NCBI GenBank assembly: GCA_021927905.1 | Contig: BLLK01000022.1 | Location: 1,860,001-1,924,000 of the forward strand | DNA length: 64,000 nucleotides | Direction of reading: 5' to 3' | Source: Chaetoceros tenuissimus | Lineage: Eukaryota; Bacillariophyta; Thalassiosirophyceae; Chaetocerotales; Chaetocerotaceae | Part shown: positions 15,051-59,622 of the stretch, in pieces | How the letters are laid out: each line of letters opens with the position of its first letter | Numbering within the stretch: position 1 is the stretch's first letter | Made by a program: the position numbers and the translations under genes | The notes under the pieces: model-generated | What the model was told of the DNA's origin: nothing | The model's input: the letters and a program-made list of their open reading frames with translations, nothing else | Database searches by the model: none

Positions 15051-15053
15051 GTG

Positions 15054-15427: not shown

Positions 15428-15629
15428 CCCCCCCTGGGATCGGATCAATGATAAGAAAGCAGTCTTCCTTGGACACTGAAATACAATGTGTTGCCATTGA
15501 GTATTCCAGAGGAAGAACCACCCACAACCTAGAAGAGCCAGCTCACTGAAGGATCTGGACGAGACCAAGGCAGAATAAAAGAGAACAGGACCGAGCTGCA
15601 GTACTGAATCAGACCCTATCGTAAAAGTT

Positions 15630-16240
15630 ATCGAGAAAAGTCAGTTCAGTACAATGACAAAATACCCGTCTAATATACATGAGTCCCTCTACTATACAAA
15701 ACCCCCTATAATATACAACCAATCCCATCTAAAATAAAATCACCCCATGACCAAAGCACCGTAGGCAACAAAACCCAGTGGGAAAAAGTATGCCTAGGTA
15801 AAAACCGAGCTGAGATCCTATTCTTAAAAGTATCACAGCCGACAAACCCAACTGACAAAATACCCCTCTAATATACACGAATCCCTCTACAATACATGAG
15901 CCCTATAATACAATGAATCCCATATAGTAATATCATCTGCGTAACCGAAGCACCTTAGACAACAAAACCCAGTCGGAAAAAGTATGCCCAGGTGAAATCC
16001 AAGCTGAGATCATATTCTTAAAAAGTATCACAGCCGAGTGTGCAGAAATGAGATACTAGCTGAACTTCCAAAAACGACGTATGCCAAGAAGTATCACAGC
16101 TGAGTGTGCGGAAATGAGATACTAGCTGAACTTCCGAAAATGGCGTATGTCTAGATGTTTAACCAAGCTGAGATCCTTTTCTTAAGAAGTAGCACAGCCG
16201 CGTGTGCAGAAATGAGATACTAGCTGAACTTCCGAAAACG
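15630..16240. repeat. Degenerate tandem repeats
   Basis: Two diverged units of roughly 190-200 bp share CCCTCTAATATACA-type blocks and AACAAAACCCAGT-GGAAAAAGTATGCC. They are followed by three shorter units sharing AGTATCACAGC-GAGTGTG and AATGAGATACTAGCTGAACTTCC (about 16020, 16085 and 16190). Unit lengths vary, so they look old. Confidence 0.55.
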
Positions 16241-17700
16241 TATGACAATGCCATAATGTCATTTCGAACTAAAACAGATTTGAAAGGCCAAGATCCGCAT
16301 TTCCATCGTCACCCTTGATCAGTTGAAACGCATACTTCAACGTTAGTCGTTAACCAGAGAGCTTCAGTGATCCGAATGAGCCTTTACCCAGCACAAATAG
16401 CTGAGACCAATGTTTGAGGCATAAATCAAGATGAAGAACTTTGTTACGACCACAGAATATATTTGTAGACATGGATTTCTGCCCAATTGTAAAGACTAAC
16501 ACAAGTAAAGAGTAGCCACTACAGGAAATCTCTTTGCACATTAGAAGTGTCAAATCTGCATCGTTTACAGGAGCCCCCAATGAGAGCACGAAGACACAAT
16601 CAGGACTTGATCTTGCAGACTTGGTAACTCATTACGCCCGAAAGAGCCACCAAAAGTGCATATGTGGACCTTAAAAGCACAGAAACTCTAGCAGAAATTG
16701 AATTGACGTTTAAGCATTCATGTGCGTCAGTAAAGGAAGATCCAAACCAAAGTTTAGTAAGGATCGACAACAGTAAACTCTCGTAACACAGACATCAGGG
16801 TGCCACTCGTCACCCAGCCAAAGTTAGACATGAACCTGGAAACGATACCAGCCACAGACAGGACTTGTGCAGCAGCAATAAGCAAACTTTCCCACATCAA
16901 TATCCTCGCCAGAGAGCTGCGCTGAACAGAATGAGTCGTGAGACTGTGAAACGTTTGGTAGCACATTTCCCTAATGGGCATTGACTATAAAAACCAAATG
17001 CAAACTCATCACAGGCTGGCAAGTTACAACTAAATATAACGAAGGACAACAACAATCCGGATTACAATTTTGGCATGTGGTACGACCTAGGCTGCTTTTC
17101 CTCCAAGAGTAAAGATGCAAGAGACTTTACCACTTTAAGAGTAAAGTCTTGAAAGATTCGGTTGCTTTTACTCAGCATAGATGAAAAGTAAAAGCCAACG
17201 ACTCCATCAACATTTGAACCGAAAAGCTCTGTTACGGCTAGGGAATATGTATGCCACGATTGTGAAGGCTATCGAAAGCCACTTGAAGAAAACTCTTCGC
17301 ATGTTAGAAATCCAAATTTGCATTGTTTCCAGAAGCGCAAAAGAGGAACATGGAGACTAATAGCTGATGATGTACCAAGATATCTATGTAAGCCCTGCAA
17401 ACATTTAGTGTTGAGAAGTATATGCGCGAGCCTTAAATGTGCCAAACATTAAGTATTTCAGTAGTAAGCATGATGGCAAAACTGCAACACTGATGGACCT
17501 GAATTATCCCGATCAGCAAGAATTCAAGATGGTTATTACGGAATCTCGAAGCAAGCCGATACTAGTTGATGGAGCCAGCAGCCTGAATAGGACTATAGGC
17601 CACTTAAGCAACGGAAGTAGCCAAAGATGATGGTTTTTCAGTAGAGGTGCTGTAAAACACGCCACTGTTGCTGGATTGTCAAGTAATGATATCCAAAATC

Positions 17701-18232
17701 GAGTTTGACTTGCACAAGATACATTGGTAGCGCCAGAAGTATTTCAATATTATGAAATGATATCAAGGAACTGAACGCTTTGGTAGCAAAACTGAGGGAC
17801 CTGAATTATCCTGATCAGCAAGAGTTCAAGATGATAGTAACGGAATCTCGAAGCAAGCCGATAATAGGTGACGGCTACTGCAACACTTATGGAACTGAAA
17901 GCGTTGGTAGCAAAACTACAACACTGATGGACCTGACTTATCCGGATCAGCACTAATTGAAATACCGAGTTTGACTTGCACAAGATACATTGGTAGCACC
18001 AGAAGTATTTCAATATTATGAAATGATATCAAGGAACTGAACGCTTTGGTAGCAAAACTGATGGACCTGAATTATCCTGATCGGCAAGAGTTCAAGATGA
18101 TAGTAACGGAATCTCGAAGCAAGCCGATAATAGGTGACGGCTACTGCAACACTTATGGAACTGAAAGCGTTGGTAGCAAAACTACAACACTGATGGACCT
18201 GACTTATCCGGATCAGCACTAATTGAAATACC
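17701..18232. repeat. 266-bp tandem duplication
   Basis: 17701-17966 and 17967-18232 are near-identical, head-to-tail, starting at GAGTTTGACTTGCACAAGAT. Differences are few (for example GCGCCAG versus GCACCAG). Shorter pieces of the same unit recur nearby (about 17500-17590 and 18240-18310), so the array was built in several steps. Confidence 0.75.
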
Positions 18233-19577
18233 CGATTCCGATGATGGTCATGAAATCTCGAAGCAAGCCGATACTAGTTGATGTTGACAGTAGTCTGAAT
18301 ATGACCATAGGCCACTTAAGCAACGGAAGGCAACAGAGATGATGACTCATCAGAAGAGGTGCTGTAGAACAAGTTACTGTTGCTAGACAGCGGAGCGATG
18401 ACATTCAATGTCAAGCAAAGATGTAGGACTCGCATAATCTACCAAAGCCATTCTGAATATCCATGACGAAATTAGGCTTGGCTAAAAAGTGATCAACTAA
18501 GGTCATCCATGATCAGAATCGAACCCAGTGAGCGCTCATAGCTCAGGTCTAAAAGTATTGATCATTACAGTCCCATCACAGTCTCATCATCACTCTACAC
18601 CGTGAAGCTGTGTAGAATCAAACATGCCCCCCACTGCGTACCAACCAAAGGGAGGAACCCATCCAGATGAGAAAGAGATAAAAGACAAGGAATCCGTACT
18701 TCAACCATCACTCTATAACAGCATTACTGAAAATCCTGTTACAACACAGCCAGTGGTATGTAAACAAAATCGACATCGGAGGTGCATATCCAATATCCCG
18801 ACATAAACGATAGTGAATACGACCAAAAGCGAAGACTTCCAGCAGGCAAATAATGGAGATAAACCAGCTCAACCTCCTAAATAGACATTGATCTCCATCA
18901 ATATGAAATAGCTTCTAAATGAAGCAATCATTACAACCAAAACCCAAACTAGCACTTAGACCAGATGTCCCCAAAGCTTTATCTTCCCCAAAATACAAAA
19001 CGTACACCTAATCTTCCCAAAAACATGAAAACACATAATCCTATGACCTCTATCCAACCGCTGATAGTATAACACTGATAATCACCAACACTGATAGTCA
19101 CCAACCCATTCGTGACGCACTTCACCAAACAGACACATAATACAAAACCATTACTCCAACAACATCAAAATCTACAGACCTTGAAATTACTCTCACCCGA
19201 AAATAGAACACTGATAGTCACCAACCCATCCGTGACGCACTTACATCTCAACACAAAACCTAACCGTAACCCCAACCTAAACATGAAACATAAAATACAA
19301 AAACCAACCCCAACCCGAAATATAAACATTATAAAATACAGAACCTAGAGTCATCCCAACCAACAGGCTCGTAAGGAATCACATTCTGATGCGTAGTGAA
19401 ACCAAAGGAACGCTGTAGTGCCACATATGTCTCCTCTCTCATCCAAGCAAAGCTAGATGAACTAGGGCACATATCTGTGAACAACATACCCCCCAACAAG
19501 TGACGAAAGAAAGGAGGAACCATAAGAGGAGAACTGTGGCGATGCATCGTAATAGGATGAGATGCAAGAAAGCAGAA

Positions 19578-19789
19578 GAAAAAAGGAGTAAAAGTTAGCA
19601 CCAAAGAGGGCCTATCTGAAGTGCTATTCGAATACAAGCTTTTATGAGCAACACCTTATCATAAATTAGAATCACTTCAGCTTGGCTTGAGCAAACATAC
19701 GGAGTATCTCTGCTTGCCTCACTTTACAGTTGCATGACGTCACAGCTCTGATAATTGCTAACCCTGTTGAACTAAAGAGTACATGAAGG
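19578..19789. repeat. 212-bp duplicated segment S, right copy, upstream of the TPR gene
   Basis: Matches 14839-15050 with one difference. It contains TGACGTCA at 19735-19742, about 290 bp before the ATG at 20034, so it may be part of that gene's native upstream region. Its left edge abuts the 4.5-kb insertion. Confidence 0.6.
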
Positions 19790-26687: not shown

Positions 26688-27160
26688 TTTATTGCAAATA
26701 TCAAGATGAAAAGTTAAAAATGAATGATGGTGAATAGGTTACTTGTGTACTGTAGATAGAATATAATTGTAGATGGTATCTAATGGTCAAGGGCGAGCGG
26801 CCAATAATGTAATCTGCAATCAAAGCCTTCGTTATAGTCATTGTAATTTGATACTATGTATACGTACACAAAACGTCATTGGTGTCACAACGTCACAATT
26901 TTCAAAATTTCGATTGTCGAAAACCAGGGTTAGTTTTGATGAATTACGAAACCCCTGAATTTTTTCGACAAATTTTCCCAATATCAGTGAATAAAATGCT
27001 AACGATTGGTTATTTTAAATTAACGATTGAAGTACTCTAATATAGCGTTTTAGTTTTTTCTGAAGCACCCAATTGTCGGTCGATCCAGGGTTCCTCACCC
27101 TTGATCAATGTGATCAATATATAGACAAAGTATTGACTGTATATGGTGGAATTTTTGGTG
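26688..27160. other. Intergenic region, AT-rich
   Basis: Holds the promoter side of the peptidase gene. No coding frame or repeat recognised. Confidence 0.3.
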
Positions 27161-43993: not shown

Positions 43994-44491
43994 GCATAAG
44001 AAATATTTTTACAAATACTTAGCAGACCTCTGCTCTTCTATCGCTTTTACCTTTCAACTAACTTTTGAAGTGGGAATGTTTGCGTGAATGCTGATTCAAC
44101 TTGATTCAACTGCAACTTAATTTGTTTCTGATTTTACGTATTACAACAAGAAGGAAGATTGAAGAGAAAGATGAATGAAAAAGAGCGTCATCAGCATCAG
44201 GCCTCAAGGGATCTGTTGCAAGTAGCCAAATAGAAATTTCAATAGCCACGAAGAAGTATCCCATTTGAGAGAGGGGTGCAATCTCATCTAGAACTTGAGA
44301 TATGAAATGGAAGAAATTCAACGGACAGCGTATCACTAAAATAGCATTTATCAGCATTCGGCGAGATAATTTTCTCTCACTTTTTTATTTGACTTCATTT
44401 ACCTCTCTCCCTAATACAACCTTCACAATTCCTCTCTTCCGTTGGATATACTTTACTAAACCTTATATCCAAGTTAAACAAACAATATATC
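43994..44491. promoter_or_regulatory. Divergent promoter region
   Basis: 498 bp between divergent genes. Short frames overlap here but none looks coding. Promoters are inferred from position only. Confidence 0.3.
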
Positions 44492-46510
44492 ATGGAATTC
44501 ATTAGCTTATGTGGTCCAGTGGACGATAACCGAAAGAGTTCTGTGCCAAGTACAATATTTTGTGGCTTCACGGATGCCTTTGATTCCTTCCGTGAAGAGG
44601 AAAGAGAACAAGTCTCACAGCCAAATAGAAAAACTGAAGAACGTGATCGTGATGACAACTCTATAGCACTTGATGAATGCTATGATAATTCTGATGACTC
44701 GACTGTTGTCTCTGATTCTGGAGCATCTGTTCTTTCCATTGATTACGATGGGGCCGAAGAAGTGGTGAAGGAAGGAGATAAAGCTGATTTATCAGACATT
44801 GATGACCATGATGATGATTCGACAGTTACATCAGAGGTAGATCCAGCCCAAGATGAATTAAATGATCCTAAGAAAGTGAAAGAGGCCGAAGAGCAGGAGC
44901 AGAAGGCTCAAGAGTCTGCTATCCAAATGAAGAGAACACCGTCATATAGACAAGTGGAAAAACTTGAGTCAAATGACTCTTCGAAACTTGAAGAAAAGCT
45001 ATCCAATTCTGGAAAGGTTGCACAATCTATGAAACTATATGGCAATCCTTCTGCAGAGTCAAAACGAAAGAGTATGCTCAAAAACCTAAAGAATAATATT
45101 GCCAAACATGGAAGATATTCCGTTGAGGTTGGTGCTACTTTGAGAGACCTTGGTAGATTCCATGAGTCCTGTGGACAATATGATGTGTCACTTACCCTCT
45201 TTGAAGAAGCATTGGATATCTTTAGCACAAAGTACGGAGATCATGATAAGAGTGTTGTTGATATGCAGATATGCCTAGCAAGAGTACAAGACAGAATTGG
45301 AAATGATAGTATGGCTTTGAAATGGTACTCCAAGGCATTGTTCATGATTGTAGATTCTGCTGATGACACAGATCTCGATGCTTGCGATATTCGTGTTGCT
45401 GTTTCGAAAATTATTCAAGAAAAGGGTTTCCACAAAGAGGCAATCAAAGAGCTGAAAATGGCACTCAAGGGATACAGACAAACTCATGGAGATGAACATG
45501 TAACTGTTGCAGAGACGGTAGATCTTATTGCAGATTATTACACCGATAGTGGAAACCACGGCAAAGCAAACAACGTTCGTGGGGAACTTGTGAAACTCCG
45601 TGTTGCACTTCATGGCAACAAATCGTCTGAGGTCGCAGATGCTCTGAAAAAGTGGGCCATGTGTCATGAGGACCTCGATGATTTGAGTAATGCTCTCAAA
45701 ATCATGAAACAATCCTATGTCATGTTCCATGATGTAGAAGGATCTGATGGAATAAATGCTGAGGAAACTTTAGAACAAATTGGATTCTTATACAGCAAAA
45801 TGGGCCGTGCAGAAAAGGCCATCAAGGCTCACACTAGTGTTGCACTTACAAGAAAGAATAGGTATGGAGACCAAAGTGTAGAGCTTGCTGCATCGTACTT
45901 GATTTTAGGAAGAGCCTACATGGACGACAATAATCCTGAAAGAGGACTCAAGGCGCTCAATAGAGCAATGACTTGCTATGGAAAAGCAAATGAAGAAAAT
46001 AATAATCATATTGCTGAGCTCATGGAGACACTGCATACTATTGGAGAACTTCATTTGAAAACAAAGGATGCAAAGAAGGCAGTCAAAACATTTCAAAAGG
46101 AAAAATCTGTCAGAAAGAAGTACATGGAATATGATCAACTTGGAATTGCTGCTACTTATGCTTCACTTGGTGTTGCACATAGTAAATGTAAACAAGTTGA
46201 TGAAGCGAAAGAGGCTTTTATCGAAGCACTTCAAATCTACGATCGCCTCGATGGCAGAAAAACCTCATTTGCAGAAACACTCTATGCTTGTGGAAAGGCT
46301 TTCCAGGTTGGTGATGATGAAGATAGAGCATTTTTGTGCTACAAGGAAGCAGCTCAAATTTTCATGGCCAATGGGTACAATGATGATCACCTTCCAATGA
46401 AAGAAACCACAATGAGATTACTCGAGCTTGGTTTGAATGATTTAACTTCGCTCGTACCTTCGCTTCGATGCCAGCTTCTTGATGGAGAAAGTCAAAAGAT
46501 TGAATTCTAG
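44492..46510 (+). CDS. Kinesin-light-chain-like TPR protein
   Basis: 672 residues. Residues 1-190 are acidic and disordered (repeated DDSTVVSD / DDDSTVTSE). From about 200 on there are roughly ten TPR units of 42 residues with kinesin-light-chain spacing, for example VGATLRDLGRFHESCGQYDVSL, DMQICLARVQDRIGNDSMAL, TLEQIGFLYSKMGRAEKAI, LAASYLILGRAYMDDNNPERGL, IAATYASLGVAHSKCKQVDEA and FAETLYACGKAFQVGDDEDRA. These proteins are numerous in diatoms and act as scaffolds. No kinesin-binding coiled coil is seen, so a motor role is not implied. Confidence 0.8.
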   Translation: MEFISLCGPVDDNRKSSVPSTIFCGFTDAFDSFREEEREQVSQPNRKTEERDRDDNSIALDECYDNSDDSTVVSDSGASVLSIDYDGAEEVVKEGDKADLSDIDDHDDDSTVTSEVDPAQDELNDPKKVKEAEEQEQKAQESAIQMKRTPSYRQVEKLESNDSSKLEEKLSNSGKVAQSMKLYGNPSAESKRKSMLKNLKNNIAKHGRYSVEVGATLRDLGRFHESCGQYDVSLTLFEEALDIFSTKYGDHDKSVVDMQICLARVQDRIGNDSMALKWYSKALFMIVDSADDTDLDACDIRVAVSKIIQEKGFHKEAIKELKMALKGYRQTHGDEHVTVAETVDLIADYYTDSGNHGKANNVRGELVKLRVALHGNKSSEVADALKKWAMCHEDLDDLSNALKIMKQSYVMFHDVEGSDGINAEETLEQIGFLYSKMGRAEKAIKAHTSVALTRKNRYGDQSVELAASYLILGRAYMDDNNPERGLKALNRAMTCYGKANEENNNHIAELMETLHTIGELHLKTKDAKKAVKTFQKEKSVRKKYMEYDQLGIAATYASLGVAHSKCKQVDEAKEAFIEALQIYDRLDGRKTSFAETLYACGKAFQVGDDEDRAFLCYKEAAQIFMANGYNDDHLPMKETTMRLLELGLNDLTSLVPSLRCQLLDGESQKIEF

Positions 46511-46901
46511 TTTGCTACTTCTATTTCGACAAAGGGCTACTTTCATGAAAATGTATACAGATTAATGATTATAAATACCGTTTTCATTTTGATAAAAACT
46601 CAAGCATTTTGTGACGTTTATTATTTTATCAGCGATCTGACTTTCTGAACCTTTTCTCCCTCCCAATGTTTTTTTGAGAATGTTTATTAGGAGTCTGGTT
46701 CTACTTATTTTGACTTACTCTAGGAAAGGAACGGTAGGTTTCTCGCTGATTCAAAAAAAACATGACACTATCGCTTCACTTGACACCAAATGTGGAAATT
46801 GAACATACATACCCTGGGTCTTTTGGTTGAAATAATAAAAACATACAACTTACTTCCTTTGAACTTCCACTACAAACTTCAAACCAAATCCAGCTTCAAA
46901 A
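46511..46901. other. Intergenic spacer
   Basis: 391 bp, AT-rich, between two rightward genes; nothing recognised. Confidence 0.3.
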
Positions 46902-48056
46902 ATGTATTCGCCACTCATGAATTCTTTTAGTTCGAGAACAAACTCGCAAGAAAGTCTTGGGATGGAAAATTCACAAGAGAGTATTTTCCAATCGCAACGC
47001 GAGGCAGCACTTAAAAGGCGAAGACAGTATCTTCGCAATTCGATTGCATCCAAATCAAGTCTCGCTCTCTCACCAACAGAATCTCGTCAAAGTCTGAGCT
47101 ATGAAGGATTTCCTTCTTCCAAGAGTATACATGCCTTTGATGATTCTCCTTCAGCTCAACGACAGGAGATAGACAGTAAGATAATACAAGAAACGACTCC
47201 AATTAGAAACAACAATGCTCCAAATGATTTTCTCAAATATTTCAACTCGATTGACTGGGAAGACCCCAAGGCCATAAAGAAAATAATGATGCAACCTATT
47301 CCCAAAGAACTAGGAATTGTCAAGTGTAAAGTGAAGAGAAACAAAAAGAAGAACCAATATCGTCTGTACTTGGAAAACGAAACAGGAACGGATGACAAAT
47401 TTCTAATGTCTGCCAAAAAGCGTAAAAAGAAGGCAACCTCTAATTACCTCATTTCAATAAGTCGCAATGACCTCAACAAAGGGAGCGACAACATTATTGG
47501 AAAGCTACGTGCCAACTTTTCTGGAACCATCTTCCAAGTTTTTGGATCGGGAAGAAGTCCCAAAGATGTTGATGATTTTTACGATGAAAGGAATGAAGAG
47601 CCACTCCGTAAGGAATATGGAGTCATAATGTACGATAATTGCAATGAAAAACATTCGAATGGACCGCGAAGAATACAATTTTGTATTCCCAAAATTGATG
47701 CTAATGATCGAGTCATCCGTGAGTGGCAGCCTGAAACAATGGAAGAGTCAATGATTGAGAGTGTAAAGGCTTCCTCGATGGCTGCAATGCAAAATCTATA
47801 CTACATGAAAAGTCGTCAGCCGAGTTGGAATGAGGGTTTGAGTAGCTATGTATTGAATTTCAATAAGCGAGTCTCTCTTTCAAGCAAGAAGAATTTTCAG
47901 CTCATTACTCAAACTGAAAAAAGTGAAGCAGTGCTTCTTCAATTTGGACGTACCAAAGATGACGAGTTTATCATGGACGCTCAATGGCCATTTTCATTAT
48001 TTCAAGCTTTTGCTTGTTCTCTGAGCAGTTGCGATTCAAAGCTTGGAATTGATTGA
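46902..48056 (+). CDS. Tubby-like protein
   Basis: 384 residues. A serine-rich N-terminus (1-110) is followed by the Tubby C-terminal barrel. Hallmarks are LGIVKCKVKRNKKKNQYRLYLE, FLMSAKKRKKKATSNYLIS, KLRANFSGTIFQVF, then RRIQFCIPKID and the closing LNFNKRVSLSSKKNFQL, VLLQFGRTKDDEFIMD and WPFSLFQAFACSLSSCDSKLGID. Lysines in the K-K-R-K-K-K region correspond to the phosphoinositide-binding face. Tubby proteins bind PI(4,5)P2 at membranes and function in membrane-protein trafficking or signalling. There is no F-box, unlike plant Tubby-like proteins. Confidence 0.9.
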   Translation: MYSPLMNSFSSRTNSQESLGMENSQESIFQSQREAALKRRRQYLRNSIASKSSLALSPTESRQSLSYEGFPSSKSIHAFDDSPSAQRQEIDSKIIQETTPIRNNNAPNDFLKYFNSIDWEDPKAIKKIMMQPIPKELGIVKCKVKRNKKKNQYRLYLENETGTDDKFLMSAKKRKKKATSNYLISISRNDLNKGSDNIIGKLRANFSGTIFQVFGSGRSPKDVDDFYDERNEEPLRKEYGVIMYDNCNEKHSNGPRRIQFCIPKIDANDRVIREWQPETMEESMIESVKASSMAAMQNLYYMKSRQPSWNEGLSSYVLNFNKRVSLSSKKNFQLITQTEKSEAVLLQFGRTKDDEFIMDAQWPFSLFQAFACSLSSCDSKLGID

Positions 48057-48349
48057 ATCAAGCGCTTGATTGAATGAAGATAAAAGAAAGGAATTCAAAC
48101 TGTCCTTCTTGCACTTGGTTGCTTTACAGATTGTGTCCCTATGAGCTTGAGAAGTTGCTCGACAATTCTTTCCCACTGCCTTGTTTATTGCAACCCTAGC
48201 TAGTAAGGATGTACACCGTGAATGAAATTCGAGGCTGAATATAAATGAAACAGAAAGCAGGGCTGTAAAGATATGGAGTGGCAAAAGAATCCAAATATAT
48301 ACGTATAAAGATAACAAAAGAAACTTTGGTTGATTGGCAGTGAATGAAT

Positions 48350-49051
48350 TTAACTTGTTTCAATTTGCTCCATGAATTTATCTCGATTTTCATTCCACCA
48401 TTGCTCAAGATATTTAACGTCCCCGTCTGTTTCTGGATTACTCTTTGAAAAAACTTTGTATTTTATCGCCAGTTCCAAATTCTTTTCAATCACAGTCGAA
48501 TATGATCCAGTCTCCTTGTCTTCTTTTATAATACCTTCTTCATGTATTCTAGAAAGACCAATACATGCAGGTCCCCAGTTTTCTCCTCCAAATTCCGAAT
48601 GGCTCAAGACTCTTTGGTAAAGCTGAAATGCCTTCTCCAGATTCTGCTTCACTCCATATCCATGCTCATAATGATACGCTGCATAAACCATGGCATTCGG
48701 ATGCCCTCCTTCAATGGGATAATTAGTGTTTGCAGCTCTTTCAAACATTTCAACTGCCAATGCATGATCTCCAAGCTCAGTTGCAACTCGTGTAGCACCA
48801 ATGAATAAATGTGTTCCATTTTTGTCTCCAATATTTTGGGCATCTTGGATCCAGAAATTTCTCATTTTTTTTAGCTTTTCACATTCTCCCTTCTTATGTT
48901 GTTTCCAGTGTTTGCGTTGACATTCTACTCCACAGTATCGTACAACTTTGCAAAGACTACAGCGCTGAAGTTTTGTAGTTGTGGATTCGCCTGTATGACA
49001 TACCTGACAAGTATATGGCTTTAGATCTTCCAGATAGAATTCCAAGGACAT
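48350..49051 (-). CDS. MYND zinc-finger / Sel1-like repeat protein, complete copy
   Basis: 233 residues, ATG at 49051. Residues 15-56 form a MYND finger (C-x2-C, C-x2-C, RYCGVECQRKHW, H-x3-EC). Then come Sel1/TPR-like helices (HALAVEMFERAANTNYPIEGGHPNAM, YHYEHGYGVKQNLEKAFQLYQ, GLSRIHEEGI). The native end is QWWNENRDKFMEQIETS. The part from 48408 upward lies in the 2,615-bp segment repeated at 56975-59589; the last 58 bases of this CDS are unique to this copy. It is therefore the original gene end. The function is probably protein-protein contact. Confidence 0.85.
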   Translation of the reverse strand: MSLEFYLEDLKPYTCQVCHTGESTTTKLQRCSLCKVVRYCGVECQRKHWKQHKKGECEKLKKMRNFWIQDAQNIGDKNGTHLFIGATRVATELGDHALAVEMFERAANTNYPIEGGHPNAMVYAAYHYEHGYGVKQNLEKAFQLYQRVLSHSEFGGENWGPACIGLSRIHEEGIIKEDKETGSYSTVIEKNLELAIKYKVFSKSNPETDGDVKYLEQWWNENRDKFMEQIETS

Positions 49052-51022
49052 GGTGAGGTATCAAACTAGCTTTTCTTTTGGTGTGAATGTGGGCAGGTGA
49101 ATGCTTCACCATTAGAATGAAGGATGTGTGGTAAGTGGTAAGTGTGTGAATGATTTTTAGGATGTGTGGTAAGTAATAGTAAAACCAATGACGACGGAAA
49201 AGAGCTGTTTATAATAACGGTATATTACCTTAGTGACTTATACTCACAATTCCAAATGAAACATAGACGTTATTTAGATGAAGGAATCATTATTAGATCT
49301 CTTTCTAGTAGCCTTGTCGTCTGGTATCTCGCTAATTCTTATACAAGTACTCAGTCAACTTATGTACTAATGGTACTTTTTTTCTCCAAAGTTGGTCATT
49401 TTTATAGTGCTATGGTAATTTATTCAAAAAGAAACTCAAAGCGTGAAATCAGGAACTTGTGAAAGTGCTTCAGTATCTTTCTCCATCTCAACATGGCCAA
49501 TCTAGTACTTGATCCGCGAAGATACCGAATTCGATTTCCCTTTCCATCTTTTTCCAGTAGAATCAAGTCATCATCTCCACAATCCCTCCACAAGGCCCAC
49601 TGAACAATCGCAAAAGCAGAAAATAGACAAGTCCCAATCACAGTCCATATTCTCCAATCATTACGAATCTTGATAATACCAAAACTAACCAACTGAATCA
49701 AAGCTAACACATAAAATAACTTTCTCATCCATTTCTGATTCTTTTCTGTTAAACATAAGGATCCAAGCGGTGCACCTATGATAACAACGGGGCAACACGC
49801 CACTATTGCCTGATATACATCCATTGAAACTGCAGTACTCTTTTCACCTCCAGCTCCATCACTCAATGATGTAATTCGCAATAGTGTACCCGCTATACTC
49901 GTGACAGCCATAACGACAACTGATATAGCAACCAATTCATGATCTGCTCTTGAATGTTGACGGTTGAAATATTTGTAAAATGTACAACCATAAAAATATG
50001 TCATTATATCTGCCCCCGTTCCAACTTGTGCAGATAGCATCCCTCCTATGGTGCAAAATATAGCATTGGCCAATAACGATTTGACCTTTTCGCCACTGCT
50101 CGTAGTCTGTAAAGATGATGCACTCAAACTCTTCGTATCACTACAATGATCTACTCGATGCTCGTCGATTTCCAAAGATGATGCATCCTCTAATATACAG
50201 TTTTCATCACTGCTAGTAGTCTCGTTCTTGACGCGATCCAATGAAGCTAAAATGACTGCAAAAGAGGCTACCAATGTGGTATACATTACATTTACATAAT
50301 AAGAAGGAACCACAATATCCAACCCGAAGATAAGACCCAAGACAGAAAAGAACATTGACACCCCCAAAAGATTAGTATATTCCCCATTCCCCAAAATAGC
50401 ATGTTGCTTCGATTCTGAATGCTCCCTTGTCAAAATGGTGTAACTTGCACACGACATTCCAATACTCTGAATCCCCAATGCAAAATCTCTCCCTTGTTTC
50501 GGATCAAATGCCAATACCAAGACACTAATAGGAAAAGCTACTACTCCACCGCCTAATGGTGTCGCACCGGCAATGAGAGATCCTAATATCATCGCGATGG
50601 ATAAAGGGTAGTAGTTTGCAAAGGAAGAAAGGAGAATCTGATTCCGTGTTGTGATTTTGAGATAGAGGGGTAAGATAATCAGAGCTGGATAGAATTTGGT
50701 GAGGATTCTTGACAATATCATGGTCATTTTGGAGTCTGTCACGTTGAGTTACAATCTGTTCTCTCTGATTCGATCCAGAATGTATTATGTGATGTAATAT
50801 GCTCTGGTGTTGATAGTCGAACGAACTAACATGAAAAATGAAAAATGAGATGACGACTCGAGACGGACTCGACTCACATCATCAGCTTCATTTTTGTAGG
50901 CCCTTTTTTTAGGCTGTATGAGACTGATGACGTAAATCAACGGTAATTTACCGTAATTACATATGTTCATAATTCTATAAAAAGACGTTATTTAGACGGA
51001 TAGACCGTGGATCGCTGATCGC
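48408..51022. repeat. 2,615-bp duplicated segment H, left copy
   Basis: From AGATATTTAACG to GCTGATCGC, equal in length to 56975-59589 and without any difference I could find. It holds most of the MYND gene, the whole TSUP gene and its upstream region. On its right it abuts the retroelement directly. Confidence 0.9.
49420..50727 (-). CDS. TSUP (TauE/SafE-like) membrane transporter, left copy
   Basis: 435 residues from the ATG at 50727; an in-frame GTG five codons upstream is less likely. Two homologous halves are present: the first starts with SIAMILGSLIAGATPLGGGVVAFP, the second with ANAIFCTIGGMLSAQVGTGADIM. Both have the G-rich membrane hairpins of the TauE/SafE family, and about nine hydrophobic segments are visible. 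A serine/acid-rich loop lies between the halves. Bacterial relatives export sulfite or organosulfonates; in eukaryotes the substrate is generally unknown. An identical copy lies at 57987-59294. Here the sequence upstream of the shared segment is the retroelement rather than the kinase gene. Confidence 0.8.
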   Translation of the reverse strand: MTMILSRILTKFYPALIILPLYLKITTRNQILLSSFANYYPLSIAMILGSLIAGATPLGGGVVAFPISVLVLAFDPKQGRDFALGIQSIGMSCASYTILTREHSESKQHAILGNGEYTNLLGVSMFFSVLGLIFGLDIVVPSYYVNVMYTTLVASFAVILASLDRVKNETTSSDENCILEDASSLEIDEHRVDHCSDTKSLSASSLQTTSSGEKVKSLLANAIFCTIGGMLSAQVGTGADIMTYFYGCTFYKYFNRQHSRADHELVAISVVVMAVTSIAGTLLRITSLSDGAGGEKSTAVSMDVYQAIVACCPVVIIGAPLGSLCLTEKNQKWMRKLFYVLALIQLVSFGIIKIRNDWRIWTVIGTCLFSAFAIVQWALWRDCGDDDLILLEKDGKGNRIRYLRGSSTRLAMLRWRKILKHFHKFLISRFEFLFE

Positions 51023-51216
51023 GGCAAATGTGGAACGTCTCGTAGAGGGGTTAGACACCAGGTTATCATCCTTCCATGTACATCCACGTGTACCCCTCAA
51101 CGAGATATTCTTCATCACCAGCAACACTTGAATGTTGAAAGGAAACAACTACCTAATGGTTGTTCTCAGTTGTTTCTTAATTCACGCTTAGTAGATAAGA
51201 TAGAAAAATTAAAAAG
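51023..51216 (+). repeat. 194-bp terminal direct repeat of the retroelement, left
   Basis: Identical to 56773-56966 as far as I can read, in direct orientation. It begins GGCAAATGTGGAACG and ends GAAAAATTAAAAAG. It contains GTACA-TCCACG-TGTAC, a small inverted repeat. Confidence 0.85.
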
Positions 51217-51254
51217 GTGAATACCTGTTCATCACCGCAGCTCACACTTCTACC

Positions 51255-53297
51255 ATGGCTCATGCTGGACAAGGAGCCATTCCGGCAGCGCCCGCTGCGC
51301 CAACAACAACTTACTTCGATCTTTTCAGCGATGCTACGAACAACACTATGGATGGACATGTTCAGACCCTACTTGCTCCGTACATTGACTTCAATAACTT
51401 TACACCTGTCCAAGTAGAAGAAACTGCGTTATCTGGTAGACAAGGCCAACCAGCCGTGACATACTGCTTCATAGTATACCATGAAGATTCAGAGAAGATT
51501 CATGCCTACATCAACCCAGCAACCTACACTGCTTCTCCCATTAGAGCTACTCCTCATGACGGTGAAATTTTTATTCAAATTGGAGATTTGATGGAGCAAC
51601 AGTTCTCATTAGCGATTTGGCCTCGTTCCATGTATCATCAGTCCAATAACATGTTGGTGCCAACTGCGGCTCAACTGGACAACTTGATCGCGGCGGATCC
51701 CGATGACGAACTTTTCGGCCCATTTCAAGCCAATGACCCTAATGTTGAGCTTATCCGTACAAGGTATTGCTGCTTAGTGCCACATGCATATGTACCATTG
51801 GTAATAGATCGTCCACACACACCTAAGGAACTCTGGACTACTCTGAGAGGAGCCATCGTCACTGATCAATTGGAACAGCAATGTGAACCACTGATTAATT
51901 ATCTGAGAGCATGCATGAGTCGTCCTACACCTAATGATTTATCACATCTGGCTCTAGACTCTGAAGATCTACCTACTGTAGTAGCCTTGGATCCGGATTT
52001 GATTGCACATCGTAGAAGACTTCTGTATGAGGATTTTCCCCATTTTAACAACGCGGTTGGACACGCACAAGCTACGCTAGTGAGCCAAGGCATTCATGCC
52101 TTGACACAAGAAGTACATTTGGGAAGAATCGAGAGTCAACAGGAAAGAAATAGGGCAAGGAACAAGACTTTCCAGTCGGAGTATCCAGCGTCGTATGACA
52201 AACTTCTTACTTATGCACAAGTCCAAAATGGAAACTTATTGCAACCTGTTTGGAACCAGTTGGCTAGGTCTAAAAAGGGGGATCGGATCAGAATCCTCAG
52301 CCAGCACTTGGAACTCGCCAAACAGCAGTTGCATCTCACCTATGTGAAAGTTGATACCACTCCAGGGATCTTGGAGAAAATCTTGAATCTGCAATTCCAC
52401 TCAGCCTCCGCTGCAGGTGACTTTAAGGAATATTTTAATTCCTTCCTTCTTGATACCAGCAATTCCAGCGTAGTACAGCAAGCTACTTTGTACGAAACGT
52501 TACACTCGGGTGGAGCAGCACCTTCGGCTGCGGACCTTCAGCTCATCTCAGGTTTGGACATCAAGGCCTCCACGGATACTGTCAGCTATTTGCACCTGAT
52601 TCAGAAATATCTCATCTATCATCAGTGCCTCTGGGGAGGTGCACATCCGGTAACAACCAATCTTGCTACTTATTATCGTATGTTAAACCAGAAGCAGGTA
52701 GAGCTTCAGATGTATCAAGCGGGTTGTGAATTGAATGGCAGACTCCTCTTTTGGCCTCGGCTTCAGTTCAAACTGCAGACGGAGATAGATTATTGGTTCG
52801 ATATGGCTTCTTACCCAAATGTTCAGCCTGCAGATCTTCCCACTCTGAATACACATGGAGTTTTCCAAGCCATTCGTCTGCATCAGCAATGGGAGCCAGT
52901 CATGGGATCTCATTTTCTGGAGCAGTTGGGATTAACCAATGTAAATCCATCACCTTCACTTACTACTGGAGGATTGCAAGGACGTGATGACAGTGATAGC
53001 AGAGCCACACCTGGAGGAAACCGTACTATCACAAATCCTACCTTCAATGCCGACCTATTCAACCAATACAGAGAGGATAGATCCATGCGAGCTAGAGATG
53101 TAAGATCTAGATGGTTAGCAGCAGGATTAGAGTTGCCCAAATCCCGTGTAGACTCCAACAAGACGATGTGCCTTGCTTACCATGTGAAGGGTACCTGCAA
53201 TGAAGGTTGCAACTCTTCTTATGATCATGTCCCTTATTCTGCCAGCCAATATGCACCGATGGTGCAGTTGTGCTCGGAGCACTGGCCTCACCAGTGA
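51255..53297 (+). CDS. Gag-like protein of the DIRS-type element
   Basis: First long frame of the element, about 680 residues. It is mostly without recognisable domains and ends with a short Cys/His cluster that may be a nucleic-acid-binding finger. The gag assignment rests on its position before the polymerase frame. Confidence 0.65.
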   Translation: MAHAGQGAIPAAPAAPTTTYFDLFSDATNNTMDGHVQTLLAPYIDFNNFTPVQVEETALSGRQGQPAVTYCFIVYHEDSEKIHAYINPATYTASPIRATPHDGEIFIQIGDLMEQQFSLAIWPRSMYHQSNNMLVPTAAQLDNLIAADPDDELFGPFQANDPNVELIRTRYCCLVPHAYVPLVIDRPHTPKELWTTLRGAIVTDQLEQQCEPLINYLRACMSRPTPNDLSHLALDSEDLPTVVALDPDLIAHRRRLLYEDFPHFNNAVGHAQATLVSQGIHALTQEVHLGRIESQQERNRARNKTFQSEYPASYDKLLTYAQVQNGNLLQPVWNQLARSKKGDRIRILSQHLELAKQQLHLTYVKVDTTPGILEKILNLQFHSASAAGDFKEYFNSFLLDTSNSSVVQQATLYETLHSGGAAPSAADLQLISGLDIKASTDTVSYLHLIQKYLIYHQCLWGGAHPVTTNLATYYRMLNQKQVELQMYQAGCELNGRLLFWPRLQFKLQTEIDYWFDMASYPNVQPADLPTLNTHGVFQAIRLHQQWEPVMGSHFLEQLGLTNVNPSPSLTTGGLQGRDDSDSRATPGGNRTITNPTFNADLFNQYREDRSMRARDVRSRWLAAGLELPKSRVDSNKTMCLAYHVKGTCNEGCNSSYDHVPYSASQYAPMVQLCSEHWPHQ

Positions 53298-53315
53298 AAA
53301 CTTGGCTGGAAGGAA

Positions 53316-55790
53316 TTGAATAGTGTAGCGCCTAATTTAAGCCCAGTTACCCTTACTTCTATTCCTATTCCTTCGGTCTCGCCAACCAACCCCCTTCAAA
53401 CAAAACCCCCATCAAATAACGATGCAAAACGCATCAAGGTGAATGTGGAAACTAGTGTAAAAAACACTAAACTTCCACATCACCGTGATATTGGTAAGTT
53501 AATTGAATCGGATGCTGATTTGTTTAGGAAAGTGGGTTGGAGAAAGTTCATACAGATTAAAAGAGGCAGAGTCGACTTAGCAACTACAAATATAAATCAT
53601 CCTGCTGGTCATGTACTGAACCAGTACAGAAAGAGAGGAGTTCCAGTTCGTTTCAAAACCAAGCCGTGGAGCAAAGAACGTATTGATGAAGCGCTGCAAA
53701 GAGGCAGTCATCGGTCTTGCTTCGAGTATCTTGATTTTCTGGAGGAAGAGTTTGTGGATATGATGCAGAAAGGGCAGTGGATCATCCTGCCATTCGAAGA
53801 CGTTCAGTCATTGCCAAACCTACGCCTATCACCACCTGGAGTTGTTCCACAACGCGAGAGAAGACCTAGATGGATTGTCGATTATAGCTTCTACAATATA
53901 AATGAAGACACGTTGCCACTGGTCTTGGATTCCATGCAATTTGGTCATGCTTTGGATAGAATACTTCGCGAAATATTGCTTTCCAATCCCAATCATGGAC
54001 CAGTCCAGCTTATGAAGGTAGACTTATCCGATGGCTTTTATCGGTTGTGCCTCAACATTGACGATATACCCAAGCTGGGAGTGACCTTCCCTTCTGCAAC
54101 ACACAACAACCTTGTAGCCTTTCCACTAGTATTGCCAATGGGCTGGAAGAATTCTCCTCCAGCGTTCTGTACTGCCACTGAAACAATTGCTGACCTAGCC
54201 AATCGTTCACTACAAGCTGGAAGTCCTTCTGCAGCTCATCCACTTTCTAAACATGCTGCACCTATGGATGGCCCAATATCACCCCCAACTGCTACAGCTA
54301 CTGCGCTGCAGCCCCCATTTGTTTCAGCTACCACGCTGAATTCATCACTATCACAAACTGATATTCCTACTGTTAGAGATCCGTCTCTACCCTTCCCTAT
54401 GACATTACTACAGTATATCGATGTATTTGTTGATGACTTCATTGCCCTTGCACAAACTGGTAATCGAAATTACGTCCGAGACACATTGTTACACGCAATT
54501 GATACAGTGTTCCGTCCCAATGACTTCTATGACAGTGAATACAGACGCGAACCAGTGTCACTCAAAAAGTTGAGAAAGGGAGATTGCTCTTGGAGCACAA
54601 TCAAGCTAGTGCTTGGGTGGATCATAAATACAGTAGCAATGACCATTGAGCTTCCACAGCATCGTCAGGAAAGACTTGGCGCCATTCTATCGAGTATTCC
54701 CTCAACACAGAAACGCATAGGTGTCAAGAAATGGCATAAGCTTCTTGGTGAATTACGGTCTATGGCTTTAGCACTACCTGGTGCAAGATGTATGTTTGGA
54801 ATGATGCAAGAAGCGTTGCGATCGTTGGATAAGAGAAGTCGAATTTCATTGCGGAAGGGTGTACATCAATCGATTGCAGATTTTCAATGGATGCTCAAAG
54901 ACATTTCAAAGAGACCAACTCGTATTGCCGAGCTAGTGCCACTTTTACCATCAGCTTTAGGCTTTCATGATGCGTCAGGTGAAGGAGCAGGCGGTGTTTG
55001 GTTCCCTTCTCACACAATTGGAAGTCGTATGAAAAACAAAAACACATTGCATCCGTTACTGTGGAGATACAAGTGGCCTCAAGACATCATTGATGACTTG
55101 GTCACCGAAGACAATCCTCAAGGAAAGATTACAAATTCCGATTTAGAATTAGCTGGAGGATTACTACACTTGGATGTGATAGCACATTGTTTGGATGTTC
55201 GAGAAAGGACACTGGTCAGCAAGACGGATAATCTGGCTACTCTCTTCTGGGAAAGGAAAGGAAGTGCAACAAATGCAGCAGTAACACATCAACTCTTGAG
55301 ACTCTTTGGAATTCATCAGCGCTTTCATAGATACGTTCCTAGGCATGATTACATCTCCGGACCATCCAATCCTCTTGCTGATGACTCTTCTCGTTTATTC
55401 CATTTATCCAATTGCGAACTTCTCACTCACTTTAATTCCAAATTCAAACAGAAATACACCTTCAAAATTGTGCACCCGACACAAAAGCTGATTTCTGGCG
55501 TGATCTCGGCTTTGCGGAACAAGAAGTTCGACAAGGAGTTACTACTGGACGTTCCGCCGCCTCTGACACACACTGGGAAAAGTGGATTGAGTTCACAAGT
55601 GTCCTGGGCCAAGATCCCTTACTCCAAACCGTCGAGGACAAAGTACCGTACCTACAAGTCTTCCTCCACAGAGTACGACACGGATTCTATGCAGCCAACA
55701 AGAATCCAATACGCGCTCGATCAGCTGAAGATTACCTACGGAGCATTGGACAGACGTACCTTGAATTGGGTGAACAGGACCCAAGACTAA
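53316..55790 (+). CDS. Reverse transcriptase / RNase H of the DIRS-type element
   Basis: About 824 residues. It contains a reverse-transcriptase core (VDLSDGFYRL, PMGWKNSPPAF, and the catalytic VDDF block) and a downstream RNase-H-like region (FHDASGEGAGGVW, then DNLATLFW). The arrangement is typical of DIRS-like polymerases. Confidence 0.85.
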   Translation: MNSVAPNLSPVTLTSIPIPSVSPTNPLQTKPPSNNDAKRIKVNVETSVKNTKLPHHRDIGKLIESDADLFRKVGWRKFIQIKRGRVDLATTNINHPAGHVLNQYRKRGVPVRFKTKPWSKERIDEALQRGSHRSCFEYLDFLEEEFVDMMQKGQWIILPFEDVQSLPNLRLSPPGVVPQRERRPRWIVDYSFYNINEDTLPLVLDSMQFGHALDRILREILLSNPNHGPVQLMKVDLSDGFYRLCLNIDDIPKLGVTFPSATHNNLVAFPLVLPMGWKNSPPAFCTATETIADLANRSLQAGSPSAAHPLSKHAAPMDGPISPPTATATALQPPFVSATTLNSSLSQTDIPTVRDPSLPFPMTLLQYIDVFVDDFIALAQTGNRNYVRDTLLHAIDTVFRPNDFYDSEYRREPVSLKKLRKGDCSWSTIKLVLGWIINTVAMTIELPQHRQERLGAILSSIPSTQKRIGVKKWHKLLGELRSMALALPGARCMFGMMQEALRSLDKRSRISLRKGVHQSIADFQWMLKDISKRPTRIAELVPLLPSALGFHDASGEGAGGVWFPSHTIGSRMKNKNTLHPLLWRYKWPQDIIDDLVTEDNPQGKITNSDLELAGGLLHLDVIAHCLDVRERTLVSKTDNLATLFWERKGSATNAAVTHQLLRLFGIHQRFHRYVPRHDYISGPSNPLADDSSRLFHLSNCELLTHFNSKFKQKYTFKIVHPTQKLISGVISALRNKKFDKELLLDVPPPLTHTGKSGLSSQVSWAKIPYSKPSRTKYRTYKSSSTEYDTDSMQPTRIQYALDQLKITYGALDRRTLNWVNRTQD

Positions 55791-56605
55791 ATTGTCATGA
55801 TAACATTGATTTTCGTTTGGCAAGGATGATCAAGTCTTACAAGAAAAAGGACCCGCCTCCAAATAGAGTGAAGCCAGTTCCTCTTTCAGTCATCCGTCGA
55901 ATTGCACAAATTGCTTTCTCTGGCAACAGCTTCAATCAACATGCCACAGCCGACATGATAATCATTGCTTTCTTCTTTCTTCTTCGTCCTGGAGAATATT
56001 CTTACTCCAACACCGATAGTGATCCCTTTCTTCTTGCTGATGTTCAATTTTGGATTGGCCATCAGCGACTCAATACAATGACAGCTACACCCACACAACT
56101 CCGTCAAGCCACTTTTGTTTCATTAACATTCACTACGCAAAAGAATGGAGTTCGTGGAGAAGTCATTGGACTCTCATGCAGTGGAGAATTCTACCTCTGT
56201 CCAGTCAAAGCGCTGGCACGTAGAGTCATTCATTTGAAACAGCATAACGCTGCACCAAATACACCACTGTGTACATATTTTTGCCAAGAACGACAACGTC
56301 TTGTGCATGTTTGTCCATCTGATATAACAAACACTCTTCGCACAAATGTTGCTGCTCTTGGTCCCGCCCTTGGTTTCCTTCCATCCGATGTTAGCGCACG
56401 CTGCTTGCGAGCTGCTGGTGCAAATGCTCTGCTGTGCGCAAATGTCGATTCTGATGTCATCCGTCTTCTTGGACGCTGGAGATCTGATGAAATGCTACGA
56501 TACCTACATCTGCAAAATTCTCAACTTATGCAACACTTCAGTCAACGCATGCTGACTGGTGGCAATTTCACCTTAATTCCAAACCAAGAAGTCCCTCTCT
56601 TTTAA
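55766..56605 (+). CDS. Tyrosine recombinase of the DIRS-type element
   Basis: About 279 residues. The C-terminal catalytic part follows the DIRS/Ngaro pattern: an arginine box (SARCLRAAGANAL), LLGRWRSDEMLRYLH with the catalytic-tyrosine region, and no integrase-type DDE. Recombinases of this class integrate a circular DNA intermediate and normally leave no target duplication. Confidence 0.8.
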   Translation: MGEQDPRLNCHDNIDFRLARMIKSYKKKDPPPNRVKPVPLSVIRRIAQIAFSGNSFNQHATADMIIIAFFFLLRPGEYSYSNTDSDPFLLADVQFWIGHQRLNTMTATPTQLRQATFVSLTFTTQKNGVRGEVIGLSCSGEFYLCPVKALARRVIHLKQHNAAPNTPLCTYFCQERQRLVHVCPSDITNTLRTNVAALGPALGFLPSDVSARCLRAAGANALLCANVDSDVIRLLGRWRSDEMLRYLHLQNSQLMQHFSQRMLTGGNFTLIPNQEVPLF

Positions 56606-56772
56606 ACCCCACCCGTCTATGGCTTTGGTGGCAGGCAAGATGATTCTCAAATGCATCTTACCTTGGCGGCATGGTTGAGGTTTCCTAGTAAACATCAATT
56701 TTCGCCAATGCTCTTATAAATTAGCTATAGACACTAGAAGAGAAAGTGACGAATGGCAGTGGTGGTAACCAC
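56606..56772 (+). other. 3' untranslated part of the retroelement
   Basis: About 170 bp between the recombinase frame and the right terminal repeat, ending in the small palindrome GTGGTAACCAC just before the repeat. No host sequence is seen. Confidence 0.5.
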
Positions 56773-56966
56773 GGCAAATGTGGAACGTCTCGTAGAGGGG
56801 TTAGACACCAGGTTATCATCCTTCCATGTACATCCACGTGTACCCCTCAACGAGATATTCTTCATCACCAGCAACACTTGAATGTTGAAAGGAAACAACT
56901 ACCTAATGGTTGTTCTCAGTTGTTTCTTAATTCACGCTTAGTAGATAAGATAGAAAAATTAAAAAG
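56773..56966 (+). repeat. 194-bp terminal direct repeat of the retroelement, right
   Basis: Matches 51023-51216 along its whole length. Its outermost bases, read on the minus strand, supply the stop codon of the truncated MYND gene copy. Confidence 0.85.
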
Positions 56967-57618
56967 CCTCTCCCAGATATTTAACGTCCCCGTCTGTTTC
57001 TGGATTACTCTTTGAAAAAACTTTGTATTTTATCGCCAGTTCCAAATTCTTTTCAATCACAGTCGAATATGATCCAGTCTCCTTGTCTTCTTTTATAATA
57101 CCTTCTTCATGTATTCTAGAAAGACCAATACATGCAGGTCCCCAGTTTTCTCCTCCAAATTCCGAATGGCTCAAGACTCTTTGGTAAAGCTGAAATGCCT
57201 TCTCCAGATTCTGCTTCACTCCATATCCATGCTCATAATGATACGCTGCATAAACCATGGCATTCGGATGCCCTCCTTCAATGGGATAATTAGTGTTTGC
57301 AGCTCTTTCAAACATTTCAACTGCCAATGCATGATCTCCAAGCTCAGTTGCAACTCGTGTAGCACCAATGAATAAATGTGTTCCATTTTTGTCTCCAATA
57401 TTTTGGGCATCTTGGATCCAGAAATTTCTCATTTTTTTTAGCTTTTCACATTCTCCCTTCTTATGTTGTTTCCAGTGTTTGCGTTGACATTCTACTCCAC
57501 AGTATCGTACAACTTTGCAAAGACTACAGCGCTGAAGTTTTGTAGTTGTGGATTCGCCTGTATGACATACCTGACAAGTATATGGCTTTAGATCTTCCAG
57601 ATAGAATTCCAAGGACAT
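56959..57618 (-). pseudogene. MYND / Sel1-like protein, 3'-truncated duplicate ending in the retroelement
   Basis: 219 residues, identical to the copy at 48350-49051 up to KYL. It then continues GEAF and stops, these last codons being read from the 8-bp spacer and the end of the retroelement. The last 18 native residues are lost. The finger and most helices remain, so it could still be expressed as a shortened protein. Its upstream region is also duplicated and identical. Confidence 0.8.
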
Positions 57619-59589
57619 GGTGAGGTATCAAACTAGCTTTTCTTTTGGTGTGAATGTGGGCAGGTGAATGCTTCACCATTAGAATGAAGGATGTGTGGTA
57701 AGTGGTAAGTGTGTGAATGATTTTTAGGATGTGTGGTAAGTAATAGTAAAACCAATGACGACGGAAAAGAGCTGTTTATAATAACGGTATATTACCTTAG
57801 TGACTTATACTCACAATTCCAAATGAAACATAGACGTTATTTAGATGAAGGAATCATTATTAGATCTCTTTCTAGTAGCCTTGTCGTCTGGTATCTCGCT
57901 AATTCTTATACAAGTACTCAGTCAACTTATGTACTAATGGTACTTTTTTTCTCCAAAGTTGGTCATTTTTATAGTGCTATGGTAATTTATTCAAAAAGAA
58001 ACTCAAAGCGTGAAATCAGGAACTTGTGAAAGTGCTTCAGTATCTTTCTCCATCTCAACATGGCCAATCTAGTACTTGATCCGCGAAGATACCGAATTCG
58101 ATTTCCCTTTCCATCTTTTTCCAGTAGAATCAAGTCATCATCTCCACAATCCCTCCACAAGGCCCACTGAACAATCGCAAAAGCAGAAAATAGACAAGTC
58201 CCAATCACAGTCCATATTCTCCAATCATTACGAATCTTGATAATACCAAAACTAACCAACTGAATCAAAGCTAACACATAAAATAACTTTCTCATCCATT
58301 TCTGATTCTTTTCTGTTAAACATAAGGATCCAAGCGGTGCACCTATGATAACAACGGGGCAACACGCCACTATTGCCTGATATACATCCATTGAAACTGC
58401 AGTACTCTTTTCACCTCCAGCTCCATCACTCAATGATGTAATTCGCAATAGTGTACCCGCTATACTCGTGACAGCCATAACGACAACTGATATAGCAACC
58501 AATTCATGATCTGCTCTTGAATGTTGACGGTTGAAATATTTGTAAAATGTACAACCATAAAAATATGTCATTATATCTGCCCCCGTTCCAACTTGTGCAG
58601 ATAGCATCCCTCCTATGGTGCAAAATATAGCATTGGCCAATAACGATTTGACCTTTTCGCCACTGCTCGTAGTCTGTAAAGATGATGCACTCAAACTCTT
58701 CGTATCACTACAATGATCTACTCGATGCTCGTCGATTTCCAAAGATGATGCATCCTCTAATATACAGTTTTCATCACTGCTAGTAGTCTCGTTCTTGACG
58801 CGATCCAATGAAGCTAAAATGACTGCAAAAGAGGCTACCAATGTGGTATACATTACATTTACATAATAAGAAGGAACCACAATATCCAACCCGAAGATAA
58901 GACCCAAGACAGAAAAGAACATTGACACCCCCAAAAGATTAGTATATTCCCCATTCCCCAAAATAGCATGTTGCTTCGATTCTGAATGCTCCCTTGTCAA
59001 AATGGTGTAACTTGCACACGACATTCCAATACTCTGAATCCCCAATGCAAAATCTCTCCCTTGTTTCGGATCAAATGCCAATACCAAGACACTAATAGGA
59101 AAAGCTACTACTCCACCGCCTAATGGTGTCGCACCGGCAATGAGAGATCCTAATATCATCGCGATGGATAAAGGGTAGTAGTTTGCAAAGGAAGAAAGGA
59201 GAATCTGATTCCGTGTTGTGATTTTGAGATAGAGGGGTAAGATAATCAGAGCTGGATAGAATTTGGTGAGGATTCTTGACAATATCATGGTCATTTTGGA
59301 GTCTGTCACGTTGAGTTACAATCTGTTCTCTCTGATTCGATCCAGAATGTATTATGTGATGTAATATGCTCTGGTGTTGATAGTCGAACGAACTAACATG
59401 AAAAATGAAAAATGAGATGACGACTCGAGACGGACTCGACTCACATCATCAGCTTCATTTTTGTAGGCCCTTTTTTTAGGCTGTATGAGACTGATGACGT
59501 AAATCAACGGTAATTTACCGTAATTACATATGTTCATAATTCTATAAAAAGACGTTATTTAGACGGATAGACCGTGGATCGCTGATCGC
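56975..59589. repeat. 2,615-bp duplicated segment H, right copy
   Basis: Same length and sequence as 48408-51022 (offset 8,567). Its right edge continues into native DNA upstream of the kinase gene (GATCGC-TCTCAGCACACG), while its left edge abuts the retroelement. So the native left end belongs to the other copy and the native right end to this one. Confidence 0.9.
57987..59294 (-). CDS. TSUP (TauE/SafE-like) membrane transporter, right copy
   Basis: 435 residues, identical in sequence to the left copy. This one keeps its native upstream neighbour, the kinase gene at 59623, with which it shares a divergent promoter region of about 330 bp. If both copies are real, the cell carries two identical transporters with different far-upstream DNA. 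Confidence 0.8.
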   Translation of the reverse strand: MTMILSRILTKFYPALIILPLYLKITTRNQILLSSFANYYPLSIAMILGSLIAGATPLGGGVVAFPISVLVLAFDPKQGRDFALGIQSIGMSCASYTILTREHSESKQHAILGNGEYTNLLGVSMFFSVLGLIFGLDIVVPSYYVNVMYTTLVASFAVILASLDRVKNETTSSDENCILEDASSLEIDEHRVDHCSDTKSLSASSLQTTSSGEKVKSLLANAIFCTIGGMLSAQVGTGADIMTYFYGCTFYKYFNRQHSRADHELVAISVVVMAVTSIAGTLLRITSLSDGAGGEKSTAVSMDVYQAIVACCPVVIIGAPLGSLCLTEKNQKWMRKLFYVLALIQLVSFGIIKIRNDWRIWTVIGTCLFSAFAIVQWALWRDCGDDDLILLEKDGKGNRIRYLRGSSTRLAMLRWRKILKHFHKFLISRFEFLFE

Positions 59590-59622
59590 TCTCAGCACAC
59601 GTCTCCATTCCTACATTAAATC
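59310..59622. promoter_or_regulatory. Divergent promoter region, transporter / kinase
   Basis: Contains CGGTAATTTACCGTAATTAC, with a perfect GGTAAATTTACC-like inverted block (GGTAATTTACC), near 59508-59525, and GATGACGT near 59490. The same bases are present in the left H copy near 50940. The regulatory role is inferred from position. Confidence 0.35.

Follow-up and report, generated by a model that had tools for sequence, protein, structure and literature searches.

A truncated tyrosine-recombinase retrotransposon flanked by identical 2.6-kb host segments in the diatom Chaetoceros tenuissimus

The analysis of a 64,000-nucleotide stretch of the Chaetoceros tenuissimus genome (hereafter the window; G+C content 39.4%) revealed a retroelement lying between two identical copies of a host segment, designated H, in the order left host (L), H copy 1, retroelement, H copy 2, right host (R). 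The left end of the element is a normal one, its right end is truncated, and the second H copy runs into R without interruption. This arrangement could be explained by a one-off event in which the left end was inserted normally, while the right end broke and was attached to an empty sister copy at a point 2.6 kb upstream, an explanation about which our own judgement is evenly balanced. As a whole, the structure resembles a mishap, either during insertion and repair or during assembly, and not an element of a novel kind.

Comparison of the window with itself by BLASTN aligned positions 48408-51022 with 56975-59589 over 2,615 bp at 100% identity and with no gaps. The 64-kb window contains no Ns. 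A preliminary description of this DNA had claimed the order of segments given above and two H copies of equal length free of differences; both claims were confirmed, as none of the 2,615 sites differs. According to open reading frames and Pfam, H includes a TauE/SafE-like gene and the greater part of a MYND/Sel1-repeat gene; the two lie on the minus strand.

We searched the genome (41,027,912 bases in 68 contigs, the longest one seen, C34, being 4,456,483 bases, versus 85 published scaffolds) for further copies of these sequences. Among the matches listed there was no third place for H in the 41.03-Mb genome when its first 493 bp were used as the query, and none for L with H (query 44000-51021). 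The search with R listed its own place, a 30-bp stretch overlapping H copy 1, and diverged sequences of 63-93% identity; one listing gave 71-93%, with the closest long match at 89%. A separate allele of the H locus was not found among the matches listed for H, for L with H or for R. We also considered H as a long terminal repeat and rejected this, since it holds host genes, has no third place among those listed and abuts an internal truncation of the element. Other repeats are present elsewhere in the window: positions 26757-27087 belong to a dispersed family of ~330 bp, for which the genome search gave more than 20 matches, and direct repeats of 381, 267 and 212 bp, nearly identical (~99%), are clustered at positions 14443-19789.

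Table 1. Features of the duplicated host segment and of the retroelement, in window coordinates
Feature	Position	Strand	Remarks
H copy 1	48408..51022	.	100% identity to copy 2
Tyrosine-recombinase retroelement	51022..56974	+	5,953 of the family's 6,107 bp; final 154 bp missing
A1 terminal repeat, 195 bp, normal left end	51022..51216	+	Self-comparison, alignment with other copies
Gag-like ORF, 680 aa	51255..53297	+	No Pfam match
Putative reverse transcriptase / RNase H ORF	53316..55790	+	RVT_1 weak; RNase H by eye
Tyrosine recombinase (YR) ORF, 389 aa stop to stop	55436..56605	+	phrog_1 integrase match
B1 internal repeat, 139 bp	56634..56772	+	Repeat comparison among copies
A2 internal repeat, 195 bp, identical to A1	56772..56966	+	Carries A1's private variant
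A2-B2 linker, first 8 of 23 bp; B2 absent	56967..56974	+	
Aberrant junction, broken element to H copy 2	56974..56975	.	1 bp microhomology, no Ns
H copy 2	56975..59589	.	100% identity to copy 1
Uninterrupted (empty) target site, H to R	59589..59590	.	Single C at insertion point

The element, whose family has split direct repeats (A1...B1-A2-B2), belongs to the tyrosine-recombinase retrotransposons. Its assignment to the tyrosine-recombinase elements, made already in the preliminary description, is supported by a database match of the YR frame together with the split direct repeats of full copies. This match, to the integrase family phrog_1 of PHROGs, is modest (E 5.4e-4, residues 283-364); Pfam gave no convincing match for the same frame, and a structure model built from the single sequence was too poor for use (mean pLDDT 37.6). 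The reverse transcriptase frame scored E 0.0057 against RVT_1, under the curated cut-off of Pfam, and inspection by eye found in it an FVDD motif, of the kind found in reverse transcriptases. A Cys/His cluster was seen, also by eye, toward the C-terminus of the Gag-like product. The YR and reverse transcriptase/RNase H frames overlap by ~350 nt (55436-55787) in different frames, and the same overlap is kept in a copy of 94% identity (L012). No Pfam match to a methyltransferase domain was obtained up to E 10, in a weak test where the reverse transcriptase itself barely scores; this leans toward Ngaro/VIPER rather than DIRS/PAT. A tblastn search confirmed no relatives in viral contigs.

The published genome report attributes 1.11% of the C. 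tenuissimus genome to 'Gypsy/DIRS1' elements (PMC8613185), and our literature search on diatom DIRS retrotransposons in Chaetoceros found nothing beyond this report. The genome search with the element listed 45 matches, comprising 15 close places (the window included) and diverged fragments. Full-length copies measure 6,107 bp (6,076 bp in L011) and consist of A1 (195 bp), the Gag-like, reverse transcriptase/RNase H and overlapping YR frames, B1 (139 bp), A2 (195 bp), a 23-bp linker and B2 (139 bp). Most of the close copies are young, because eight of them, that of the window included, differ pairwise at just 5 to 20 of 5,953 sites. L012, equal in length, differs from those eight at 331 to 338 sites, and L011 is ~95% identical. 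Four copies (L014, L015, L017 and L021) are shortened, either by internal deletions (element positions 4328 to B, 185 to 2203 and 72 to 4882) or, in one case, to an A-linker-B2 remnant, which resembles the product of recombination between A1 and A2.

Left flanks were queried for 13 of the 14 other places; the copy on C36 was excluded as it runs off its contig. Among the matches listed, none of the 13 flanks had a near-identical direct copy within 20 kb, and the duplication of H beside an element is a single case among the places queried. The flanks of L011 and L010 fall in dispersed repeats; that of L010 has an 83% inverted match 0.8 kb off, and that of L017 an 82% match 22 kb off. A 361-bp tandem pair (L009:7567-8293; 99.7% identical) lies ~0.1 kb beyond the left end of one copy and does not flank the element.

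The two junctions of the element with host DNA are different in nature. At the left one (51021/51022) the first ten bases are identical to those of nine other full-length copies, base 51022 (C) being common to H and the element. On the right the element ends 8 bp past A2, so that 15 bp of the linker and the 139-bp B2 are absent. The right side of A2 is retained at 13 of the 14 other close places (L004-L013, L015, L017 and L021), the fourteenth (L014 on C13) having lost A2 by internal deletion. Since B2 follows A2 in 13 out of 13 of those places and is missing here, the right boundary is a truncation and not the natural end of the element. The earlier claim that the element sits exactly between the H copies therefore holds for the left edge, which is a normal end, but not for the right edge, which stops 154 bp short of the natural terminus. 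At the break, the microhomology amounts to 1 bp (A), and filler is absent. The linker is crossed in the assembled full-length copies, indicating that it is no general stop for the assembly.

The boundary between H copy 2 and R has the form flank, one C, flank. The same form is found on C52, a 53-kb contig which carries the locus of the C39 copy (L005) without the element (L055), and because of this match H copy 2 with R reads as pre-insertion DNA. The left flank of L005 has a 99% copy on C52. Over 2,356 aligned columns C39 and C52 show 35 mismatches and 39 gap positions (~1.5%), and from this divergence C52 is probably an allele, not a paralogue, of the C39 locus. Filled C39 and empty C52 have a single C in common at the insertion point and nothing more. 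At this one locus the family inserts without target site duplication, which bears out the expectation voiced earlier for this type of element. A very long target duplication, one of the explanations put forward at the outset, lost ground, as duplication by the recombinase leaves the missing B2 unexplained. We rejected a 2.6-kb target duplication made by the recombinase in view of the truncated right end and of the lack of duplication at the one testable locus.

The repeats of the element indicate how many insertions took part. Both element position 54 (in A1) and position 5804 (in A2) are C in the window copy. At position 54 the other copies have A in all 22 A repeats found and C in none, a count which leaves out L012, L021 and L022, where the search word did not match. 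The agreement of A1 with A2 is not forced by the assembly, since the two differ within L010 (one difference) and within L011 and L012 (more). Most simply, both ends of the window element would come from one copy and hence from one insertion, which weakens every reading that relies on two insertions or on crossing-over between them.

We therefore favour a course of events that would start with a single insertion of the retrotransposon between H and R. Its left end would have been joined by the recombinase in the usual manner, and its right end lost within the A2-B2 linker. Using 1 bp of microhomology, the broken end may then have been attached 2,615 bp upstream, on a chromosome copy with the empty site; the simplest candidate for this copy is the sister chromatid. 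From that point, replication or joining would restore H and R and leave the empty site after the second H. We infer a cellular origin, a sister-chromatid partner and repair by end joining or microhomology-mediated break-induced replication; this is the most economical cellular route, and it would account for the observed junctions, truncation, identity of the H copies, empty-site sequence and variant shared by A1 and A2, although not for where the breaks lie. In favour of a cellular event are the lack of differences between the H copies (0 of 2,615), the seamless join and the passage of the assembly through the linker elsewhere. Tentatively, and with the greater probability against it, we also consider one-ended integration, where the recombinase would have attached a linear, incomplete cDNA to the chromosome by one end, and the other, free end would have initiated microhomology-mediated replication on the sister chromatid. 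If this is true, a single step by a YR retrotransposon sufficed to duplicate host genes in tandem at kilobase scale.

A strong alternative, which we place somewhat below an even chance, is a misjoin following one insertion: a contig of the filled allele ending inside the element would have been joined to a contig of the empty allele starting within H. The genome report (PMC8613185) describes strain NIES-3715 as diploid with a mean heterozygosity of 1.56%, and the assembly (41.0 Mb in 85 scaffolds, the longest of 4.46 Mb; 38.9% G+C; reads under DRA009158) as made from MinION and Illumina data with MaSuRCA 3.3.0 and then collapsed with HaploMerger2, with defaults for both. One PCR primer from that report has a single exact match in the genome searched here. 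There is published trouble with these tools, and a collapsed assembly of this kind is prone to false duplication. Filled C39 and empty C52 both remain in the collapsed assembly, C52 probably as a leftover allele. C36 stops within an element copy (L013, C36:384447-390835) at element position 1065, so the family can break an assembly. The boundary of H copy 2 with R is indistinguishable from an empty allele, and the duplication is a single case. On C44, two chlorophyll-binding-protein gene regions (L053/L054; 291500-293000 and 303400-304900) form a direct pair 11.9 kb apart that is 98.2% identical over ~1.5 kb, near allelic divergence; these may be alleles placed in tandem or a real duplication. 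An FCP fragment compared with the PDB at E 1e-20 had no match.

Against the misjoin, the identity of the H copies would require homozygosity over 2.6 kb. False haplotypic copies usually show allelic divergence, and their joins are often marked by Ns. At 1.56% about 41 differences would be expected between alleles of H; none was observed in 2,615 bp, whereas the one likely allele pair (C39/C52) diverges by ~1.5%. Unless homozygosity prevails here, the H copies are therefore something other than ordinary alleles. Local heterozygosity may depart from the mean, and a locally homozygous tract would also give no differences, in which case the identity of H is uninformative. A study of Phaeodactylum accessions found no support for loss of heterozygosity over time in culture (PMC10833087). 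The junction is seamless and free of Ns, and the break falls within a linker that was assembled through in other copies. A run of 100 Ns on C62 is either a gap or a withheld stretch, and because of this ambiguity the marking of joins by Ns is not established in this assembly.

Two further explanations appear highly improbable. The order left-H-element-H-right would result if two insertions of the same element, lying 2.6 kb apart on sisters or homologues, had crossed over unequally, or if an assembler had stepped through both. However, this predicts normal ends at both host junctions, while the element's natural end is missing from the right one; the private variant in A1 and A2 points to one copy; and a pair of insertions within 2.6 kb would be unlikely, given ~15 places in 41 Mb. 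This reading is viable only if the second insertion was truncated too and had the same variant. Both forms had been suggested in the preliminary description: crossing-over is now weakened by the truncated right end and the shared private variant, and so is stepping between haplotypes in its two-insertion form, where normal ends are expected at both junctions; an assembly error of another form, the misjoin described above, keeps a fair probability. Equally doubtful is an illegitimate exchange in which the linker break of the filled allele was joined to the empty homologue within H: it covers the truncation and the empty site, and mitotic recombination between homologues has reportedly been found in diatoms (Bulankova et al. 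2021), but the H copies would then be alleles, with ~41 differences expected and none seen.

If the structure is real, there are two copies of the TauE/SafE-like gene, and the second copy of the MYND/Sel1 gene has its last residues swapped for residues derived from the element. The failure of one end of a YR retrotransposon insertion could then duplicate neighbouring host genes, which would bear on the use of linear cDNA instead of the circular intermediate that published models assume. If it is not real, collapsed diploid diatom assemblies can hold seamless, identical false duplications beside young insertions.

Among known systems, PAT, Ngaro and VIPER are described with an A1-B1-A2-B2 split-repeat arrangement (PMC4157794, PMC6681497), and the models given for DIRS1 have a circular intermediate that recombines with the genome where a short sequence is identical, no target duplication being made (PMC3266345). 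Our element resembles Ngaro, PAT and VIPER (DIRS order) in its split direct repeats, in the putative Gag-RT-RH-YR order and in duplication-free insertion at a short shared sequence, here one C. Unlike these, the window copy has no B2, and a 2.6-kb duplication of host DNA borders it. When haplotypes are falsely duplicated in a collapsed diploid assembly, similar tandem copies of a locus arise, one filled and one empty, but here neither allelic divergence nor Ns at the join are present. In the small-fragment-driven DNA amplification described for yeast (PMC3521702) small DNA molecules likewise set the borders of tandem duplications. Their ends, as that account has it, act by homology and need Rad52, whereas in the window the left border is the normal junction of the recombinase and the right one has 1 bp of microhomology.
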